Shown here piece by piece: positions 8,367 to 64,000 of a stretch of 64,000 bases of DNA (within the stretch, counting starts at the first letter, position 1; each line of letters starts with the position of its first letter). The notes below the pieces were generated by a model. It saw only the letters and a list, made by a program, of their open reading frames with translations. It had not been told where the DNA came from and did not search any database. This stretch comes from Methanobacteriota archaeon (GTDB taxonomy: Archaea > Thermoplasmatota > E2 > DHVEG-1): NCBI GenBank assembly GCA_903877165.1, contig CAIRCU010000008.1:1-64000 (forward strand), written 5' to 3'. The position numbers and the translations under genes are program-made.

Positions 8367-8701
8367 GTACCAAATCCATCCATGTTGCCTTCGCGACCCC
8401 GCTTCTTGAGAAAAATTTCGAACGATTAAAACAGGGAACCTTTGAAGAGCAGCAACTCTATGCCTCATTGGAACATGCTATTGAGATATTGAAATTGAAC
8501 CCGATGTACGGAAAGAAAATCCCTCGTCGCCTCTGGCCTCGAAGTTACACAAAACGCTACCAACTTACGAACCTGTGGAAATACAATCTCCCCAAAGCAT
8601 GGAGGATGATTTACACGATTTACGAAGATAAAGTCATGATCCTCAATGTCATTCTTGATTGGTTTCCACATAAAGAGTATGAGCGAGTTTTCAACTACTG
8701 A
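8363..8701 (+). CDS. RelE-superfamily toxin-like protein
   Basis: NPMYGKKIPRRLWPRSYTKRYQLTNLWKYNLPKAWRMIYTIYEDKVMILNVILDWFPHKEYERVF. Confidence 0.7.
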   Translation: MSTKSIHVAFATPLLEKNFERLKQGTFEEQQLYASLEHAIEILKLNPMYGKKIPRRLWPRSYTKRYQLTNLWKYNLPKAWRMIYTIYEDKVMILNVILDWFPHKEYERVFNY

Positions 8702-8766
8702 TTTTTAGAGAAGTGAATCATTGGGTAATGATGATTCAATGTAGAGTCACAATTTCTTATAGAAAA

Positions 8767-9006
8767 TTATAGTCCCAGACGTCTCTTTGCTTCCTCAAGA
8801 GTAACAAATTGTCCTTTTTTATATCGCTCCCTTGCTTCTTCAATGGCTTTGATTGTTTCTTTGCTTAGCTCGGGGTTTTTTTTGATGTTTTTCACGATAT
8901 AGACGAGCTTGCGGATGACTTCATCGTAGCTTTCGTTCTTGTTTTCTCGGAATTGATCGATTTGGAGTTTGGTATCGGTTTGGATTTTGATGGTGGTCGC
9001 GCTCAT
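8767..9006 (-). CDS. Orphan RHH-type antitoxin
   Basis: ATTIKIQTDTKLQIDQFRENKNESYDEVIRKLVYIVKN...IEEARERYKKGQFVTLEEAKRRLGL; no toxin ORF adjacent on the same strand. Confidence 0.75.
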   Translation of the reverse strand: MSATTIKIQTDTKLQIDQFRENKNESYDEVIRKLVYIVKNIKKNPELSKETIKAIEEARERYKKGQFVTLEEAKRRLGL

Positions 9007-9008
9007 CA

Positions 9009-9036
9009 AGTATACTTAGGTATACCAAGGTATAAA
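9009..9036 (-). promoter_or_regulatory. Candidate RHH operator: three GTATAC-type sites at 10-bp spacing overlapping the TATA box
   Basis: agtatact-ta-ggtatacc-aa-ggtataaa directly upstream of the 9006 start codon; the first two 8-mers are perfect palindromes. Confidence 0.6.
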
Positions 9037-9280
9037 TACTTTCCTCTGATCGTTTTTTTTTATTTCAGTTTTTATAGAGTAATGCTAACAGTTCCTCTGA
9101 TGTAAATCCTGTTTTTCTTCGAGAATAAAGAATCTATTTTGCTGTCAAGCCTCCATGATTCATTTTAAAGGCTTCTCTTCTCCGGGTTCCTCCCTTTTCC
9201 TCCATCAGTGTTTATGATAGCATGTTCTCCACTCCATTTCATTAACTATAAATTGAGGAGAGTGCCATAGATACCGTTCA

Positions 9281-9367
9281 ATGGCAAAGAAGCTCGATAA
9301 GAAATTCATCGACGAGTTCGTCGAAGAACACAAAGAGTACATCATGTTTTGCGTGAAGGCTCACTAA
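9281..9367 (+). CDS. Candidate small protein (28 aa), paralog of 5486-5581
   Basis: MAKKLDKKFIDEFVEEHKEYIMFCVKAH versus MPKKKELKDIDKFVDEHREYIMFCAKAH. Confidence 0.4.
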   Translation: MAKKLDKKFIDEFVEEHKEYIMFCVKAH

Positions 9368-41186: not shown

Positions 41187-42818
41187 TTACCGGCGGCGCA
41201 GGAACCCGTTCGTCAGCGACGGTGAAATGCTGGGTTGGACATCCTGACAGAATTCCGGCATGCACGGACGGTCCACCTTTTTGTTGAGGGGGAACCCGGA
41301 GAGGTGCATCATCGGTGCGGTGGCTTTGCTCCCATGGCGCCAGCGGGCGTAGAACCAGTGGCTGAAGAAGAACATGGGGTGGTACAGCCATTTGAGATCC
41401 GGCGCCCAGAAGTCGATGTTGTTGCGCCAGCATTTCGCCAGCACCTCCCATTGCAGTTCGGAGAGGTTCTTGAGGTTCGTGCGGTGCTGGTTCCCCAAGA
41501 CAGCGTCCTGCAGAGGAATGAAGAGGACCGGGGTGTAGAACATCTTGGCGTGATGGTTCCGCAAGTCGTCGATGAGGTCCAGGGTCGCGCGCACGTCCGC
41601 CTCGGTCTCATCCGGCTGCCCGGTCATAATCGTGCAGAGCGGCCACCAATCCGCGTCATTCATCGTCCCAATGCCTTGAAGCACGAGCTGTGGCCAGTCG
41701 TCCACGCTGTACGGGAGGGCCTTGCCCTTCATATGCAGCTTCATGAGCCGAACACTGCCGGTCTCGATGCCGACTTCGACGGAGACGAACGGCTTTTTGT
41801 AAAAGCCACTGGTCTCCGGCCGCCACTTCGTCTTCTCAAGAAGGATCGGGGAGAGCTCATCGAGGAGCTTGCGGTCGTAGATCACAGGGGCAAGCGAGGC
41901 ATGCGACAACAGGATGTTCTCAACGCCGGGGTACGCGGCGATGGATTTATAGAGCTCGACGATAGCGGGGCGGTTGGGCACGAAGTTCGGCTTGGACTTG
42001 TACAAGAAGATGTCCTCGGTGACCGTGAAAATAGACCGGGAGCCGCTCGCGACGTTGACTGCGACCTCTTTCATGATGAAGGGGAGGGGGACCGAGTATT
42101 TCGTACGGTTCGTCGGGCTGCAGAACTGGCAGCCGCGGCCGCAGCCCCGGGTGATCTCCACCATGCCGTAGCTTGCGGCATGCTTGATGAGCGGGATGTG
42201 GGAGCGGTCCGGTTTCTTTGCGGACACAATCGGAGGGACTGCCTCGTTTCGGAGGAGTTTGCTGAAGAGGGGAACGAGGTCGTCTTCGCCTTCGCCTTGG
42301 AACAAGACGTCGACGCCGAGGGCCTCCTGCATGCCTGCCTCCGCGATCTGCCAGGAGCCGGCGCCGCCGACGACAATCGTCGGTTTGTACCATTGGATCG
42401 CAGGATGGCTGATGAGGCGTTTGAACTCAGAGGCATTGAGTGCCTCACCGCCGAAGCCGATGAGGGAGTTGTAGGTCGTGGAGACGTACGCGAGCCCCAT
42501 GGGGTCCATGGAGGAAATGGCGACGATCTTGGTGTCTGGGCCAATCACGCGGTCCAGCATGTCATAGTGGGCGACCGCGACTGCATCGTCTCCGAAGGCA
42601 TCGGTGAGGAGAGATTCGACCTTGCGCAACCCGTAGATCGTCCGGGTGGCGGTGCCGTCAGGGTTACTGGGCAGGTTTTCGAGGTGGTCGCGTAGGAACA
42701 AGCCGGAGAGCTTGTACGGGAAGGTGCAGATGAATGCGGCGAAGGGGTTGTTGTCGTACTCGCTGGCCTCCGCTCTAGAAGCCGTCAAAACAATGGGGTA
42801 GCCGCGGTGCCGTGTCAT
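41187..42818 (-). CDS. B12-binding-type radical SAM protein
   Basis: VEITRGCGRGCQFCSPTNRT (CxxxCxxC), upstream VVGGAGSWQIAEAGMQEALGVDVLFQGEGEDDLV. Confidence 0.88.
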   Translation of the reverse strand: MTRHRGYPIVLTASRAEASEYDNNPFAAFICTFPYKLSGLFLRDHLENLPSNPDGTATRTIYGLRKVESLLTDAFGDDAVAVAHYDMLDRVIGPDTKIVAISSMDPMGLAYVSTTYNSLIGFGGEALNASEFKRLISHPAIQWYKPTIVVGGAGSWQIAEAGMQEALGVDVLFQGEGEDDLVPLFSKLLRNEAVPPIVSAKKPDRSHIPLIKHAASYGMVEITRGCGRGCQFCSPTNRTKYSVPLPFIMKEVAVNVASGSRSIFTVTEDIFLYKSKPNFVPNRPAIVELYKSIAAYPGVENILLSHASLAPVIYDRKLLDELSPILLEKTKWRPETSGFYKKPFVSVEVGIETGSVRLMKLHMKGKALPYSVDDWPQLVLQGIGTMNDADWWPLCTIMTGQPDETEADVRATLDLIDDLRNHHAKMFYTPVLFIPLQDAVLGNQHRTNLKNLSELQWEVLAKCWRNNIDFWAPDLKWLYHPMFFFSHWFYARWRHGSKATAPMMHLSGFPLNKKVDRPCMPEFCQDVQPSISPSLTNGFLRRR

Positions 42819-42829
42819 AGCCTGTCGCC

Positions 42830-43147
42830 TTAGGGTTCTTTGATAATGAGCGCCTTGAAGACCGGATCTTTGATAGTCTCCTGGATCCGCATGAGGAACT
42901 CTTTCCATGAGAGGGTGTGGCGTGCCCATTGGATCATTTCTTTCTTGTGCAACGAGAGGATTTGAAGAAAGCTTTGCCAGGTGTAGCCTTCGGCCTTGAG
43001 CGGCTGAGACCAGCCGGCATCGTGCCAGAGGTAGCGAGGCAGCTGGTTGCCGAACCACAGTCCTAGGGAGTCGATGTCCCAAGAGCAGGGCGTCGTCTGG
43101 GCCGTGGGCTTGAACATGGCTGGTTCTGGTGGAATAGCGAGGCGCAT
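42830..43147 (-). CDS. Hypothetical protein paired with radical SAM gene
   Basis: MRLAIPPEPAMFKPTAQTTPCSWDIDSLGLWFGNQLPRYLWHDAGWSQPLKAEGYTWQSF; 11 bp upstream of the radical SAM start, same strand. Confidence 0.6.
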   Translation of the reverse strand: MRLAIPPEPAMFKPTAQTTPCSWDIDSLGLWFGNQLPRYLWHDAGWSQPLKAEGYTWQSFLQILSLHKKEMIQWARHTLSWKEFLMRIQETIKDPVFKALIIKEP

Positions 43148-58148: not shown

Positions 58149-58586
58149 ATGGCGGATCCGATTGCCGTCGTGCTCGACGATTTGCTGAAGCTGGATGATA
58201 TTTTGGCGTGCATGGTGGCACGTCGCAACATGATTACAATCATGCCGACGGGTGAGGCATTCAAGCCCGAGGTGCACGGGATCTGGGACATCATCCATCG
58301 GGCAATGGATGATGTGTTCGGTGTGATCGGGGCGTACGCGCAGACGGGACTTGGGGAGATGGAGTTCCGACTGCAGGACTACGAGGTCTTGTTCTACGTG
58401 TTCCCGGATACGGAGAACGCGCTCGTCGCGATCGTGCCTGCGCTGGCGAACAAGGGGCTGCTTGAGGTAGAACTGGAGAACGCGCGGCGCGAAATCCTCA
58501 AAATCATGAAAGAGCCTGCGAAAGAGCCTGATTGGATTGATGGCGCGTCTAATCAGCAACAAGAAGGCCGTGTTCAGGCCGTCTGA
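58149..58586 (+). CDS. Roadblock/LC7-like domain protein
   Basis: IAVVLDDLLKLDDILACMVARRNMITIMP...YEVLFYVFPDTENALVAIVPALANKGLLEVELENARREI. Confidence 0.55.
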   Translation: MADPIAVVLDDLLKLDDILACMVARRNMITIMPTGEAFKPEVHGIWDIIHRAMDDVFGVIGAYAQTGLGEMEFRLQDYEVLFYVFPDTENALVAIVPALANKGLLEVELENARREILKIMKEPAKEPDWIDGASNQQQEGRVQAV

Positions 58587-58647: not shown

Positions 58648-59598
58648 CTATTGAAAAATCGGTGTTCCGAAATTTGTCAATTCATTGAGTAGAAAACCAT
58701 ACTCGATACCCCATGCTTCTGTGAGGTGGAGGTGGTCTAATTCTATTGATCCGACGTGATGCTGCTTCTCTTCTTTCAACGCCTGCATGATGACTTCTGC
58801 TATGCAGGCGAAATTCTTCCCAGGTGGCATCCCTGGAATGGGGATGGGAACAGGGAAGTCTACGAGCCCGCCGTCCACGCGGCAGACGTCAGGGCGGGCT
58901 CTGCAGACATCAATGGCGAGGTTCACGGGTTGCGACACATCAACGACGATAGCATTTTTCTTCAGATGCTCAGAGCCTAATAATGCAGTCGGATGGCTGG
59001 TCGCGGTAACCACGACATCCGCGTTCTGCGTGACTAACTTCACCGTGGTTTCAAAATTACCCGTGAGGCTTTTTTCCAGCTTATCGAACTTCGATTGGTC
59101 TCGCCCGATAAGTATCGAGTGCGAAAACTGTGGAACGATTAATTTGGACACGGCCTCACCGATGATCCCATACGCCCCCACAATAGCCAACGTGAGATCT
59201 GCGGGATCTCTGTGCACCATTGAAAGCACCTTTCGAACCGTTTGGCAGGTGACCGCTGCGGTGTAGCTATCGCCATGGTTCACATAGCCGTTGTATTGGT
59301 GCTGATCGGTGAGCCATTTGCCGCCATTGGTAACCGAGGTCGTCAGGGCCCCGAGCTGCACGACGTCAACTGCATACTCATTCTGCAAGAAGAGCGCGGC
59401 ATCAAGGATTTTCTGTCTGACTGCAGAGCGTGGCTGGGTCATCATCGCTTTGGCGGTGATCAGGATACCGGACAGATGCCCTTTCGTCCCGTAGACGTCC
59501 AGTTCAGGGGAGATGATGAAGTCGTGTTGTATCCATGAAGCAGGTAGTTGCCGTAGGGTGTTCTCATCGAGAAGATGGCCGATAGTCGCGAACTTCAT
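58648..59598 (-). CDS. Acyl-ACP reductase (cyanobacterial AAR)-like protein
   Basis: MKFATIGHLL...VVQLGALTTSVTNGGKWLT...GDSYTAAVTCQTVRKV...LAIVGAYGIIGEAVSKLIVPQFSHSILIGRD...FACIAEVIMQAL. Confidence 0.7.
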   Translation of the reverse strand: MKFATIGHLLDENTLRQLPASWIQHDFIISPELDVYGTKGHLSGILITAKAMMTQPRSAVRQKILDAALFLQNEYAVDVVQLGALTTSVTNGGKWLTDQHQYNGYVNHGDSYTAAVTCQTVRKVLSMVHRDPADLTLAIVGAYGIIGEAVSKLIVPQFSHSILIGRDQSKFDKLEKSLTGNFETTVKLVTQNADVVVTATSHPTALLGSEHLKKNAIVVDVSQPVNLAIDVCRARPDVCRVDGGLVDFPVPIPIPGMPPGKNFACIAEVIMQALKEEKQHHVGSIELDHLHLTEAWGIEYGFLLNELTNFGTPIFQ

Positions 59599-59626
59599 GG
59601 GGTGACACCGAGTCTGTGGATGAAAA

Positions 59627-60904
59627 TCAGTCGAACTCGTATAAAGATGATTCCGAGGGCTTAAATAAGCGGACGGCCGGGTAGGCTTTCGCTTCAAAGG
59701 CTTTCCCGTTTTCGTAGACGATTTTGATATGGCTTATGTAGCGGACGATGGCGCTGCTGAGGAGGTCGGGGAGGGTATGTGAGACAGAGGCGAGTGGGTG
59801 CATGACGCTATTATCCCGGGCGCCGTTGGATTCTACCCCGGGGAACCGCAGGAGTGCATCGCGTTTCTCGGGTAAGCAGAGGCCTTTGCAGACGAGGTAG
59901 TCGAGGAAGGCCGCCCAACGGGGTTCTTGATGGTACCCGTCTGCTTGAAATGAGCATTCAAGGCCGAGGCGAGGTCCGATACCTTTCGGGGTGACGTCGA
60001 AACCGAGGACGAACCGATTCGCGAGCGGTTCTATCTCAGTAAGCATGGTGGCGAGGGCGTCTCCGTCGCCCATCCAGCCGATGGTTCGCAGGTAGTGAAG
60101 AATTTGTGAAGGGGCGAGATGGTTGATGAAGAGGCGAAGGTTCTCGTTGTCCCCTCTCGATAGCATGACGCCGACCTGAAAGAGATTGGCGTTCTCCGGG
60201 AGTTGCCGTAGGCATGTCGCGAGCTGCTGTTTGATAGAGGCGTGGACGGCATGGCCTTTGAGGAGGGGAAGGGCTGAACGGGTGAGCCATGCGTACTCTG
60301 AGACGGTGTTGGAGGCGACTCCTTTGGGGAGGCGGTTTGGCCCGAAGAAGACGCTGGGGAGGGACACGGTCGGTGGCTGCTCTGGCATGTCGAACTCAAG
60401 CCAGAAGCATTGGATGCGCCGGTCGAGGGCGGACTGCGGGGTGGCCCAGGCCTTTGCGAATTTTTGTACCCGCTGCCATGCATCCTCTTGGAGGTAATAA
60501 TCAGGGATATATCCTTGGCTGAGGAAATTCGCGAGGACGTTTCTATCCGTGCCAGATCCGGAGACCGCGAAGGCCCAGTCGGTCCGTGAGACTGGTTCGG
60601 TTAATCGACATTCAAAACCGAGGAAACTTGTCAGATTGCCTGGGAACTGTCGGGCTAAGGTGATGATCTCTTGGTAGTTCTCGGGGGTGATCAGATGGTC
60701 GATGAACGGTTGGGTGGTGGAGAGGTACGTGCTGGCGTAGATGCTGTGGATGGGGAGGCGGCGGCTCATCCGTGTGTACTCTGTGGAGAATGAGTCGGTG
60801 GAGAGTGTCGTCTCTAGCCCCAGCTCTCGAGCCTTGAAGGATTGGATGAATCCCGTGGGATGTTGAAGATTCGTATGCATAGTTCTCTGGTTCGCTATGG
60901 TCAT
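59627..60904 (-). CDS. Uncharacterised protein, paralog A of tandem pair
   Basis: FLGFECRL, CFWLEFDMPEQPPTVSLPSVFFG, VGVMLSRGD, GPRLGLECSFQ, HIKIVYENGKAFEAKAYPAVRLF shared with paralog B; TATA-like element upstream. Confidence 0.7.
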   Translation of the reverse strand: MTIANQRTMHTNLQHPTGFIQSFKARELGLETTLSTDSFSTEYTRMSRRLPIHSIYASTYLSTTQPFIDHLITPENYQEIITLARQFPGNLTSFLGFECRLTEPVSRTDWAFAVSGSGTDRNVLANFLSQGYIPDYYLQEDAWQRVQKFAKAWATPQSALDRRIQCFWLEFDMPEQPPTVSLPSVFFGPNRLPKGVASNTVSEYAWLTRSALPLLKGHAVHASIKQQLATCLRQLPENANLFQVGVMLSRGDNENLRLFINHLAPSQILHYLRTIGWMGDGDALATMLTEIEPLANRFVLGFDVTPKGIGPRLGLECSFQADGYHQEPRWAAFLDYLVCKGLCLPEKRDALLRFPGVESNGARDNSVMHPLASVSHTLPDLLSSAIVRYISHIKIVYENGKAFEAKAYPAVRLFKPSESSLYEFD

Positions 60905-60987
60905 CGTCTCAACGCCTCATTGGAATTATATACCTTGTTTGCACCTGCGTACGCATTTGAATAGGAATCGATAGAATTCATCGGTCT

Positions 60988-62223
60988 TCATTCCCCCGCA
61001 GCTGGTGAGAGCGCCCCGAAGAGGCGAACACCGGGGTACGCCTTGGCTTCGAGAGGATGCCCGGGGCTGTAGACGATTTTCACATGGCTGAGGTACCGGA
61101 TCAAGGCCTTTGAGTATTGGGCGTGCGGAATGCGGACGGCCATGGTATAGCTATCGAGGGAGAATGCTGTCGTTGAGTCTTCAAGATCGGCGCCCATAAA
61201 GTCTGTGATGAGGTCTTTTTTTCCTTGTAGACAGATGTGTTTGCTTTCGAGGTAGCCGAAGAGGTCAGTCCATCGGGTTTCCAACTGATAGCGGTCCGGT
61301 GCGAAGGAGCATTCCAACCCTATTTTCGGTGCGACACCCTGGTCGGTAATGGTGATGTGCAAGACGAGACGGGAGGCGTGAACGGTAAGTTCTTCGATTA
61401 ATGATGCCAATTCGCCGTCGGTGTCGGTCCAACCAAGGGACTGAAGGTAGGGGATCATCTCCTTTGGTTGCAGGTGTCGGTAGACCAGTCTCACGCCAGA
61501 GCTTGCTCGTGAGAGCATGACTCCGACATCCATGATGGACGCCGTATCAGGGAGTTTATTGAACGCCTGAATCAGGCGGCTGCGCACGGTGGATGAGAGT
61601 GGGTGACCTAGGAGCACAGGGAGGGTGGATGATAAAAGCCAGTCGTAGTCGGAGTCGTGTTTCGCTGCTTTCATGGGGATGGTATGGATGAACACGCAGG
61701 GGATCGGTATGTTCGTGGAGGCTGGGTCTATGTCGAACTCAAGCCACAGCCCAAGCACATGGGTGTGAAGAATCGAGTGTGCATCTACCCAGTGTTGGAC
61801 GAAAGATCGCACTTGCTGCCATTCTGGTACCTGGAGATATTCAGTCGGAAAGCTACCCGCGGTGAGGAGTCGTGCGAAAGCCTCTCGCTCTCCTCGTTCG
61901 GAGGAGACGGCGATGAGGAAGTCCGCATGTGCAGTGGGTGACTGTAGGCGATGTTCGAACCCAAAGAAGCTGGAGATGTCCTCAGTAAAAAGGCAGGAGA
62001 GCCGGCTGATCGCTGTATAGGTGAGATCCGAAATCAAGGCCTTTGGGGTTGTTGATTGGATGGCCTGAAGGTAGTCGATAAGATAGCTACGGGAAAAGGC
62101 ACAAGATACAGGATGAAGGGGCAGAGCGATCTGTGTCTCAAGGGAGGATAGATGACCTTGGAGCCGCCTCGTTAAAGATTCATCGATTTCAGAACAGGGA
62201 AGCAGGTCAGGGGATGATGTCAT
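60988..62223 (-). CDS. Uncharacterised protein, paralog B of tandem pair
   Basis: FFGFEHRL, LWLEFDIDP, VGVMLSRAS, APKIGLECSFAPD, HVKIVYSPGHPLEAKAYPGVRLF; ggaggtt ribosome site. Confidence 0.7.
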   Translation of the reverse strand: MTSSPDLLPCSEIDESLTRRLQGHLSSLETQIALPLHPVSCAFSRSYLIDYLQAIQSTTPKALISDLTYTAISRLSCLFTEDISSFFGFEHRLQSPTAHADFLIAVSSERGEREAFARLLTAGSFPTEYLQVPEWQQVRSFVQHWVDAHSILHTHVLGLWLEFDIDPASTNIPIPCVFIHTIPMKAAKHDSDYDWLLSSTLPVLLGHPLSSTVRSRLIQAFNKLPDTASIMDVGVMLSRASSGVRLVYRHLQPKEMIPYLQSLGWTDTDGELASLIEELTVHASRLVLHITITDQGVAPKIGLECSFAPDRYQLETRWTDLFGYLESKHICLQGKKDLITDFMGADLEDSTTAFSLDSYTMAVRIPHAQYSKALIRYLSHVKIVYSPGHPLEAKAYPGVRLFGALSPAAGE

Positions 62224-62245
62224 CTTTTTTCAACCTCCAAGACTA

Positions 62246-62308
62246 CTAATTCATCGGAGAAACATAAAGCCCGTCTCCGAGGAAATCCGTCAAAATGCCA
62301 AAAACCAT
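62246..62308 (-). CDS. Very short candidate ORF between radical SAM and paralog B
   Basis: MVFGILTDFLGDGLYVSPMN*, 20 codons; no strong ribosome site. Confidence 0.2.
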   Translation of the reverse strand: MVFGILTDFLGDGLYVSPMN

Positions 62309-62342
62309 GGTTTCTCTGTGTGTTTGCTGAAAAAAAGGGGTT

Positions 62343-64000
62343 TTAGGAATTGACGAGAATCTGAGAGGTGGCTGATTCCACGAATTGTGCGTTTTGGGGT
62401 ATGGTGCTTCGGTATTGGAGGGGAAGACTGAGGTAGGAGTCGTCTTCATGGTAGACGAGACCGGCGTGTTCGAACGATTGGAGGATCGCAGCGAGTGTGA
62501 ACTCAGGAACTGTGGAAAGACGCTGCTGAAGCTCCTGGTACGAAATAACGTCATGGCAGGCGAGGAGGACGTCGCGCTCCACGGCGTTGAGCTTGAGGAT
62601 ACGGATGTGCTGCTTGTCGCGTTTGTCGTAGATTTTCATGAACGTACCGCCGTCGACGCTGTAAAAGACGAGGTGGCCGATGAGGGCATGGGTTTTCACG
62701 GCCTCGGCTTCCGTTGACTCGCGAGTCTTCGTCCAGTCCTGCACCAATGTTTCCCAGTCATGGGCTGGGACGGGCTTGGTGGTGGAGAATGTGTAGACGA
62801 ACGTGAAGTTCTTTTCGAGGACATCTGGGGGGTACATCAGGAGGTCGAGGGGGGTTGTCTGTAAGGCGCTGATGTTATATTTTTCGGGGAGTTGCTGGAT
62901 TGGGCTGCCATGCATGATGCGCAGTGGGCAGAGCTGCGGGGAATCTAGGTAGCCTTGCAGTTGTTGAACGATTTTTTTTGTTTCCTCGTAGTCCACTGGT
63001 TCTTCGTTGGGATAGCGGACGATGAGGTTGTAGCTATTGTAGATGCCGTATTGTGCGCAGAACTTGAGGGCGGCGATGTTGTCGATGACCCGTACGCCTT
63101 TATTCATGGTGCGGAGGTAGTGTGTGCTGAAGGATTCGATGCCGGTCTGGATAGTGGTGAAACCTGCCTCTTTCATGAGCCGATAGTCGTCGCTGGTGAG
63201 TTGCCCGGCGCGTGCCTCCACGAAAAACGAGAAATCCCGTCCGAGAAGTTTCAAGGCTTCGAAGAGTCCTCGATACTGTGTCCTTGGCAGGGTGTTGCCG
63301 ATGAGCTGGAAGTCAAGGATATGGTACCGGTCTGACAGCAGCTGGATCTCATGTGCAATGTGATCAATTGGCTTCTCTCGGTAGCAGGGATGCTGGATGT
63401 TGAGGTTGCAGAAGGTGCAGCGGTTCCACCAGCAGCCACGGGAGATTTCCACCGGGAGGCGGCCGTAGTACTGGAAAAACTGCTGGAGTTCGTCTGAGCA
63501 TGAGTGCAGCTCGTCGAAGAACGGGTCGTACGATGGTATCGGTGATGCTGCGAGGTCGATGACTGATTCGGTGGTATTCCATCGCACCTCGCCGCTGTCT
63601 CGGTAGATAAGCCCGGGGATTGAAGAGAAATTCCCTAGGTCTGAAGCAAGAAGGACGAGTGCATCCTCCCCGTCTCCAGAGACGACGTAGTCGATGAAAT
63701 CGAAGGCGCGCAGGACACCTCGGCCCATTTCGCCAGCTACTCTGCTTCCGCCAAGTACGATTTTTTTCTCCGGGGCTTGCTGCTTGATGTGTTTGGCGAT
63801 GGCAAGCGAGGGAAGCAGTTGTCCGTAGTTCAGGGTGAACCCGATGAGGTCGAACGACTGCCAGTCGAGATGCTCTAGTACCCAGTGATAGAAGACGTCG
63901 GTGCGGCGGAGGTACTCTTCAAATGGGAAGGACGAGGATGAGACAAAAGTGGCATAGTACTCCTTGATTTTTTCGATATTTTTTTGCCAGTGTTCCGGAA
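62343..64000 (-). CDS. B12-binding radical SAM protein resembling RiPP-maturation radical SAM enzymes (partial, N-terminus beyond window)
   Basis: IGFTLNYGQLLPSLAIAKHIKQQAPEKKIVLGG (B12-type domain) then LPVEISRGCWWNRCTFCNLN...FFVEARAGQLTSDDYRLMKEAGFTTIQTGIESFSTHYLRTMNKGV; frame open to base 64000. Confidence 0.8.
   Translation of the reverse strand, partial: PEHWQKNIEKIKEYYATFVSSSSFPFEEYLRRTDVFYHWVLEHLDWQSFDLIGFTLNYGQLLPSLAIAKHIKQQAPEKKIVLGGSRVAGEMGRGVLRAFDFIDYVVSGDGEDALVLLASDLGNFSSIPGLIYRDSGEVRWNTTESVIDLAASPIPSYDPFFDELHSCSDELQQFFQYYGRLPVEISRGCWWNRCTFCNLNIQHPCYREKPIDHIAHEIQLLSDRYHILDFQLIGNTLPRTQYRGLFEALKLLGRDFSFFVEARAGQLTSDDYRLMKEAGFTTIQTGIESFSTHYLRTMNKGVRVIDNIAALKFCAQYGIYNSYNLIVRYPNEEPVDYEETKKIVQQLQGYLDSPQLCPLRIMHGSPIQQLPEKYNISALQTTPLDLLMYPPDVLEKNFTFVYTFSTTKPVPAHDWETLVQDWTKTRESTEAEAVKTHALIGHLVFYSVDGGTFMKIYDKRDKQHIRILKLNAVERDVLLACHDVISYQELQQRLSTVPEFTLAAILQSFEHAGLVYHEDDSYLSLPLQYRSTIPQNAQFVESATSQILVNS

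Follow-up and report, generated by a model that had tools for sequence, protein, structure and literature searches.

What product does the four-gene operon at the end of a 64,000-nucleotide stretch of archaeal DNA make? The stretch (hereafter the window) is positions 1–64000 of contig CAIRCU010000008.1 (C8) from the 1.98 Mb, 92% complete genome of a Methanobacteriota archaeon, whose relatives are uncultured Thermoplasmata represented by metagenome-assembled genomes such as SG8-52-3 and the Lake Pavin bins. The initial annotation had described four consecutive minus-strand genes with short gaps: a radical S-adenosylmethionine (SAM) enzyme, two tandem unknown paralogs (A and B) and an enzyme resembling acyl-ACP reductase. 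From these it had proposed a horizontally acquired pathway for a modified peptide or a lipid aldehyde. All four open reading frames (ORFs) were found where they had been placed (Table 1). Sequence analysis and structural modelling identify a radical SAM enzyme of family TIGR03975, a pair of paralogs of which B has the predicted alpha-beta-beta-alpha (ABBA) prenyltransferase fold, an acyl-ACP-reductase-like enzyme and, linked to them, a family of short peptides with leader and core.

On balance, we favour an archaeal pathway of the type that makes ribosomally synthesized and post-translationally modified peptides (RiPPs), with isoprenoid tailoring. The original RiPP idea is thereby partly supported and extended, through the TIGR03975 assignment, the reductase, the bacterial homologues and a precursor-like peptide, whereas nothing observed points to a lipid aldehyde, and any transfer from bacteria would be ancient. 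We infer every chemical step of the pathway. The pathway would start with a short hydrophobic precursor peptide encoded just upstream. Its leader would be recognised by the B12-dependent radical SAM enzyme, probably through a C-terminal winged-helix domain resembling the RiPP recognition element (RRE), and, judging from its family, the enzyme would C-methylate the variable core. As fold and bacterial context suggest, A and B would attach isoprenyl groups to the core, and the reductase, together with a geranylgeranyl-reductase-like (GGR-like) flavoenzyme in many relatives, may finish the product.

The radical SAM enzyme

TIGR03975 is the curated model for RiPP maturation radical SAM C-methyltransferases. 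The 551-residue part of the enzyme encoded within the window scores 307.4 bits against this model, above the curated cut-off of 281.85, in agreement with the family first suggested for it. The gene starts outside the window: its first 235 bases extend on C8 up to base 64235. The motifs originally quoted (SRGCWWNRCTFCNLN, TGIESF, MNKGV and LKFCAQYG) are all present. A B12-type N-terminal segment had also been claimed; the B12-binding Pfam match is below threshold (22 vs 32 bits), although the enzyme matches TIGR03975, itself a C-methyltransferase model, well.

Orthologues of 45–68% identity were found in 29 of the 390 genomes sampled from the phylum, all in the archaeal family to which this genome belongs. 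Plasmid-borne bacterial relatives are 25–28% identical, and those that carry an annotation are named RiPP maturation radical SAM proteins. The cluster motif is CX4CX2C in all archaeal rows (31/31), whereas three bacterial plasmid TIGR03975 proteins have CX7CX2C (CWWGAKxHCxFCGLN), which the archaeal clade lacks. Within the literature searched, a clade with this changed motif appears to be new.

The last 130 residues, folded alone, gave a beta-beta-beta-alpha-alpha-alpha arrangement, which is the RRE topology. The Foldseek matches of this model with probability above 0.5 were TbiB1 with its leader peptide (the top match), a sactipeptide radical SAM enzyme and TigE. All are RRE-containing RiPP proteins, and the matches are weak (E 0.25–1, from a low-confidence model of pLDDT 60). 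They support, but do not prove, a predicted leader-binding, RRE-like winged helix.

Paralogs A and B

The motifs quoted for A and B (WLEFD, GLECSF and HIKIVY/EAKAYP) are present, and the two proteins are true paralogs, 33% identical over the fold and with the same invariant residues. Neither matched any Pfam, NCBIfam or prenyltransferase family, even with 24 members, and sequence searches of the PDB gave no match; the fold search alone succeeded. The AlphaFold2 model of B, calculated from 23 sequences (pLDDT 85, pTM 0.84), has ten strands in five alpha-beta-beta-alpha repeats, the architecture of an ABBA barrel. All 49 of its Foldseek matches in the PDB at E≤0.001 are ABBA prenyltransferases, including AmbP1, IptA, PriB, CloQ, NphB, EpzP, FgaPT2 and PatF. 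TM-scores are near 0.5 and identities are 9–13%; the known ABBA subfamilies are themselves very divergent from one another. The invariant residues R239, R245, R376, H380, K382, K394 and Y396 are placed by the model on strands or beside them, and would be candidates for the basic and Tyr residues that bind the diphosphate in ABBA barrels. The predicted fold of B is that of an ABBA prenyltransferase, and we consider it very likely that A and B transfer prenyl groups, whatever the acceptor. The pair can accordingly no longer be called unknown, while its earlier comparison with bacterial natural-product proteins held: bacterial homologues adjoin LanM, Nif11 leaders, 2-oxoglutarate (2OG) oxygenases and TIGR03975 enzymes, and others stand beside LanM, a C39 peptidase and a polyprenyl synthase. 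One homologue, from Pseudanabaena, is fused to a 2OG-Fe(II) oxygenase within a LanM/Nif11 cluster (L004:7980-9773; relatives are given here by locus, L, or genome, G).

Homologues of A and B occur in 15 of the 390 genomes, all of one family. The archaeal sequences form a single supported clade (100/100) with an early split into A and B, and any transfer from bacteria must therefore be ancient. The genes are old residents of this family. Composition gives only weak evidence for a recent transfer: the GC content at third codon positions is 0.60–0.69 in the operon vs 0.74–0.85 in six genes elsewhere in the window, but its total GC content, 0.54, equals that of the window.

The candidate precursor peptide

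Small ORFs near the radical SAM genes were scanned, and a precursor-like peptide was found beyond base 64000, where the initial annotation had suggested that one might lie. It is encoded 1.3 kb past the window, has a Shine-Dalgarno (SD) sequence and reads MTEIIIAGAVAGAIVAA-GYMPGYMPLGVMPK as leader and core (MTEIIIAGAVAGAIVAAGYMPGYMPLGVMPK in full). Peptides related to it were found at 29 sites across the archaeal family. They are hydrophobic peptides of 24–33 amino acids, encoded on the same strand as the radical SAM enzyme and mostly convergent with the 3' end of an Lrp-like regulator gene, most of them with a GGTGA-type SD sequence. Like RiPP precursors, they consist of a conserved leader, itself hydrophobic, and a variable core. 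The core is often repeat-bearing (GYMPGYMP, GVFPLQGVFP and ICPRICP, for example); sample cores are GYMPGYMPLGVMPK, GVFPLQGVFPKLF, ICPRICPL, GITPLLCKGITPFQF and STWVMPSL.

With profiles built leaving out the genus concerned, the peptide is top-ranked in 20 of 21 loci and reaches E<0.001 in 17. In this genome the profile gives E 6.8e-9, and the next best shuffled ORF reaches 5 bits. Genome-wide searches mostly returned one match per genome, almost always with an Lrp or radical SAM neighbour. Members outside the profile were seen in G100, G069, G181 (two), G114 (a second copy) and, more weakly, G066; those of G100, G069 and G181 adjoin an Lrp homologue. The second copy in G114 is an orphan with neither neighbour (L133:3888-3959). 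In three loci (L082, L084 and L096) the peptide is directly upstream of the radical SAM gene. The pooled ratio of nonsynonymous to synonymous polymorphism (pN/pS) is 0.44, the codon pattern of a translated gene. The peptide is probably the substrate of the radical SAM enzyme.

The acyl-ACP-reductase-like enzyme

The resemblance originally noted for the fourth gene is borne out: its best solved relatives are the long-chain acyl-ACP reductases (AAR), at E 2e-9. One of its cysteines aligns with the FAC-AE segment of AAR, the cysteine of which we take to be the active site, and is invariant in 14 relatives, as is the start methionine. The alignment with cyanobacterial AAR (PDB 6jzu) covers residues 58–269 and includes this region, but the score against the equivalog model TIGR04058 is 63.8 bits, far below the cut-off of 449.7.

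In many relatives, the GGR-like gene is directly behind the fourth gene. Relatives also have, at L033:17865-19352 and L041:3483-4442, a CrtC-lipocalin protein, the gene of which adjoins the radical SAM gene in other members of the genus, and a squalene-hopene-cyclase-like protein that follows the reductase.

Co-occurrence and an exchangeable module

Co-occurrence was tested in 45 genomes. A/B accompany the reductase in 14 of the 15 genomes that have it (Fisher p 1e-9). Genomes that lack A/B have c11, a hydrophobic protein of about 200 residues, at the same place, in one copy or two. A/B (15 genomes) and c11 (11 genomes) never occur together among the 45 (p 0.008), and both states are found inside genera g3 and g6. 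Genomes with the radical SAM enzyme tend to have A/B or c11 as well (p 0.0015, without correction for phylogeny). The combination of four genes is not constant: in several relatives the radical SAM gene and the A/B module are on different contigs. Neither a different family for the radical SAM enzyme, nor a lack of co-occurrence, nor a housekeeping match for A and B was found.

Before gene B lies a conserved 46 bp element, E1, a candidate operator or promoter. In most relatives it is half of an inverted repeat (TTTCCTACAAAA-N26-TTTTGTAGGAA), followed by GGGGCTTTATG. The gap is constant at 26 nt in most loci, and in G088 there is a matched change in both arms; in the window, the gene-proximal half alone is recognisable. 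A leave-one-genus-out position weight matrix scores E1 at 48 bits in the window vs -10 in the shuffled control, and at 22–66 bits across loci vs ≤4 in shuffled sequence. E1 was seen in the window and about 20 relatives, and a few loci are without it. A small protein-coding gene was also considered, but conservation is apparent in several frames, and E1 is treated here as a DNA or RNA element. E1 precedes three non-homologous kinds of module, with prenyltransferase, c11 and c246 genes. Unlike enzymes thus share one regulatory slot, which is consistent with isoprenoid tailoring.

In G123, two paralogous proteins with a DDLADN motif are found nearby instead (L094:3168-4139 and 8379-9338), one of them directly behind E1; they have no Pfam match and look terpene-synthase-like by eye. 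A UbiA identity was considered for c11, which had no hhalign support and no PDB or Pfam match, and c11 is left unnamed. Loci from other families of the phylum have c11 next to two GGR-like genes but no radical SAM gene (L121:3816-6766, L126:6268-9211). We regard c11 and the two GGR-like genes as a wider, uncharacterised isoprenoid module. The window has a small ORF at 60926-60991, between B and A, and relatives carry a motif, T-C-[IV]-x-R-C-E-K, just before or fused to the prenyltransferase or c11 gene: it is a separate ORF in L082, L089, L092 and L038, and the N-terminus of the prenyltransferase in L041, L042 and L039. Toxin-antitoxin genes of the AbiEi/AbiEii type are repeatedly beside prenyltransferase or c11 genes (L032:295-1601, L127:7472-8995, L083).

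Alternative explanations

Several observations weigh against a single RiPP-type pathway. The precursor gene has its own SD sequence and is 1.1 kb from the radical SAM gene, with the regulator gene between them. The Nif11 leader (PF07862) was found in 0/45 genomes of the family, where its control matched; the NHLP leader (TIGR03793) was also found in 0/45, but its control gave no match either, so that this result is not conclusive. No dedicated exporter or peptidase was recognised, and no RRE match is better than E 0.25, from a model of low confidence. Some cores in genomes with A/B have no Tyr or Trp (ICPRICPL), so that no one residue stands out as the prenylation site. The radical SAM enzyme occurs without A/B and without c11 in seven genomes, though from incomplete assemblies. 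In several relatives the A/B module, with its own upstream element, is on another contig than the radical SAM gene. That A and B act on the same peptide as the radical SAM enzyme is a possibility that we put forward tentatively.

The strongest alternative, which we judge rather unlikely, divides the locus into two systems: the radical SAM enzyme with the peptide and the Lrp-like regulator, and the ABBA pair with the AAR-like and GGR-like enzymes, the second system making a small metabolite, prenylated or terpenoid, that has nothing to do with the peptide. This would suit the separation of A/B and reductase from the radical SAM gene in G085, G222, G088, G240 and G243, the conserved element upstream of the A/B module, the c11 genes or DDLADN-motif pair in the same slot in other genomes, the cores that have no aromatic residues, the GGR, squalene-hopene-cyclase-like and CrtC-like genes near the locus in relatives, and the c11 genes of other families beside two GGR-like genes without radical SAM. 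However, in bacteria, homologues of A/B and of the TIGR03975 enzymes share RiPP clusters, the presence of the radical SAM enzyme correlates with A/B or c11, and in the window all four genes form one short-gap operon. These points argue for the single pathway.

In a further alternative, the small peptides would belong to the membrane, for instance as a subunit of a membrane protein or as a toxin linked to the regulator, and the radical SAM enzyme would have its substrate elsewhere. Their length, their hydrophobicity, the orphan copy at L133 and the fact that the regulator rather than the radical SAM gene is their nearest neighbour fit this view; the conserved leader followed by variable cores that contain internal repeats, the three loci with the peptide directly upstream of the radical SAM gene, and the confinement of nearly all matches to Lrp or radical SAM neighbourhoods make it improbable. 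Least probable of all is a radical SAM enzyme that was recruited from the RiPP family to C-methylate lipids or isoprenoids, in a locus devoted to modifying membrane isoprenoids or a quinone, a reading to which the GGR-like, CrtC-like and cyclase-like neighbours, the altered CX4CX2C motif of a diverged clade and a wide conservation in one family resembling that of core metabolism would point, but against which stand the TIGR03975 score, the retained C-terminal domain, the linked peptide family and, for the quinone, the finding of the futalosine menaquinone genes MqnA/MqnD in 0/45 genomes (control matched; classical Men genes not searched).

Pairing of peptide and regulator

In G117, three tandem units, each of a peptide and a convergent Lrp-like regulator, precede one radical SAM gene (L077:2626-6457). 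Between G085 and G222, the radical SAM enzymes are 93% identical and the regulators 63%, and GVFPLQGVFPKLF gives way to ICPRICPL as the core. Because the pair is tripled in G117 and its members change together between G085 and G222, peptide and regulator appear to form a unit. What looks like a second unit in G181 is truncated at the end of its contig. Once radical SAM similarity is removed, cores that are more alike go with regulators that are more alike (partial Mantel r 0.18, p 0.015, in one exploratory test), with exceptions such as G100. The third regulator of L077 is closer to those of other genera than to those of its own.

A bolder extension, which we regard as unlikely, is an archaeal peptide-signalling system with pherotypes, in which the methylated and prenylated peptide would be sensed by the adjacent double Lrp-type regulator and this would control the enzymes, perhaps through E1.

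Comparison with known systems

Systems of this kind are already known. In the cyanobacterial mpp clusters, the characterised alpha-beta-beta-alpha lanthipeptide prenyltransferase MppC acts on a Nif11-led precursor, MppE (PMC12715784). The archaeal locus would likewise place soluble ABBA prenyltransferases in a RiPP cluster, the likeness of A/B to MppC being one of fold and described context; homologues of A/B in Pseudanabaena and Acaryochloris are beside Nif11 leaders and LanM or TIGR03975 enzymes. Unlike mpp, it has an archaeal host, no LanM or Nif11 leader, two tandem prenyltransferases, and a radical SAM enzyme instead of lanthionine formation. With other TIGR03975 enzymes, such as that of the pheganomycin-type cluster of S. 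globosus, the archaeal enzyme shares a profile score over the cut-off and the C-terminal YLSL-LPL end. It differs from them in its cluster motif, in its low identity and in its link to a new short hydrophobic leader rather than to Nif11, NHLP or pheganomycin-type precursors. In the Rgg/SHP systems of streptococci, short hydrophobic peptide genes adjoin the regulator gene, convergently in Group III (PMC13361665). Those that include radical SAM RiPPs (RaS-RiPPs) resemble the archaeal locus in the very short hydrophobic peptide beside a regulator gene and in radical SAM peptide chemistry, whereas the archaeal regulator has a double Lrp-type helix-turn-helix (HTH) instead of the tetratricopeptide-repeat Rgg.

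Reviews place ABBA prenyltransferases in bacteria and fungi (PMC7253389). Prenylation goes unmentioned in a genome-based survey of RiPPs in archaea, which lists YcaO, radical SAM, lanthipeptide and lasso classes (PMC12144867). Four things appear to be new in the literature searched: the combination itself, ABBA enzymes in archaea, this variant of the radical SAM enzyme and the family of precursors. If the RiPP reading is correct, Archaea would gain a peptide-prenylating chemistry, the radical SAM enzymes a new clade whose cluster motif is changed, and RiPPs a new family of short precursors whose cores can be read and directly ordered for testing. If the pairing with the regulator is signalling, peptide communication in uncultured archaea would be opened to experiment.

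Other features of the locus

Table 1. Features of the operon and its surroundings (positions on contig C8)
Feature	Position	Strand	Description
Reductase	58648-59697 (full ORF); gene 58648..59598 from conserved start Met at 59598	-	acyl-ACP-reductase-like NAD(P)H oxidoreductase
Paralog A	59627..60904	-	425 aa; putative ABBA-fold prenyltransferase by homology to B
Paralog B	60988..62223	-	411 aa; predicted ABBA-fold prenyltransferase (AlphaFold2 model and Foldseek)
Radical SAM enzyme	62343..64235 (window part 62343..64000)	-	630 aa; TIGR03975 family
Lrp-like regulator	64326-65312 (outside window)	+	divergent from radical SAM gene across a 90-bp gap; double HTH
Candidate precursor peptide	65323-65415, stop 65320-65322 (outside window)	-	31 aa; profile, SD sequence, synteny
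Element E1	62259..62304	-	46 bp, conserved; 36 nt before gene B; candidate operator/promoter
Small ORF MKTDEFYRFLFKCVRRCKQGI	60926..60991	-	start overlaps stop of gene B
c5	58149..58586	+	conserved 145-aa protein; adjoins operon; no family match

Past the divergent Lrp/AsnC-like regulator are genes of the tricarboxylic acid cycle and acetyl-CoA metabolism. An Rfam scan of the 58–64 kb region gave no match. On the other side of the operon, c5 (no Pfam or NCBIfam match) is 75–85% identical to c5 of relatives, where it is usually paired with a FIST-domain gene (the neighbour c3 is FIST). It was considered as a precursor and rejected on account of this high identity and of its position after the FIST gene. 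Elsewhere in the window, another large gene (41187-43082) encodes a radical-SAM-like CxxxCxxC segment.

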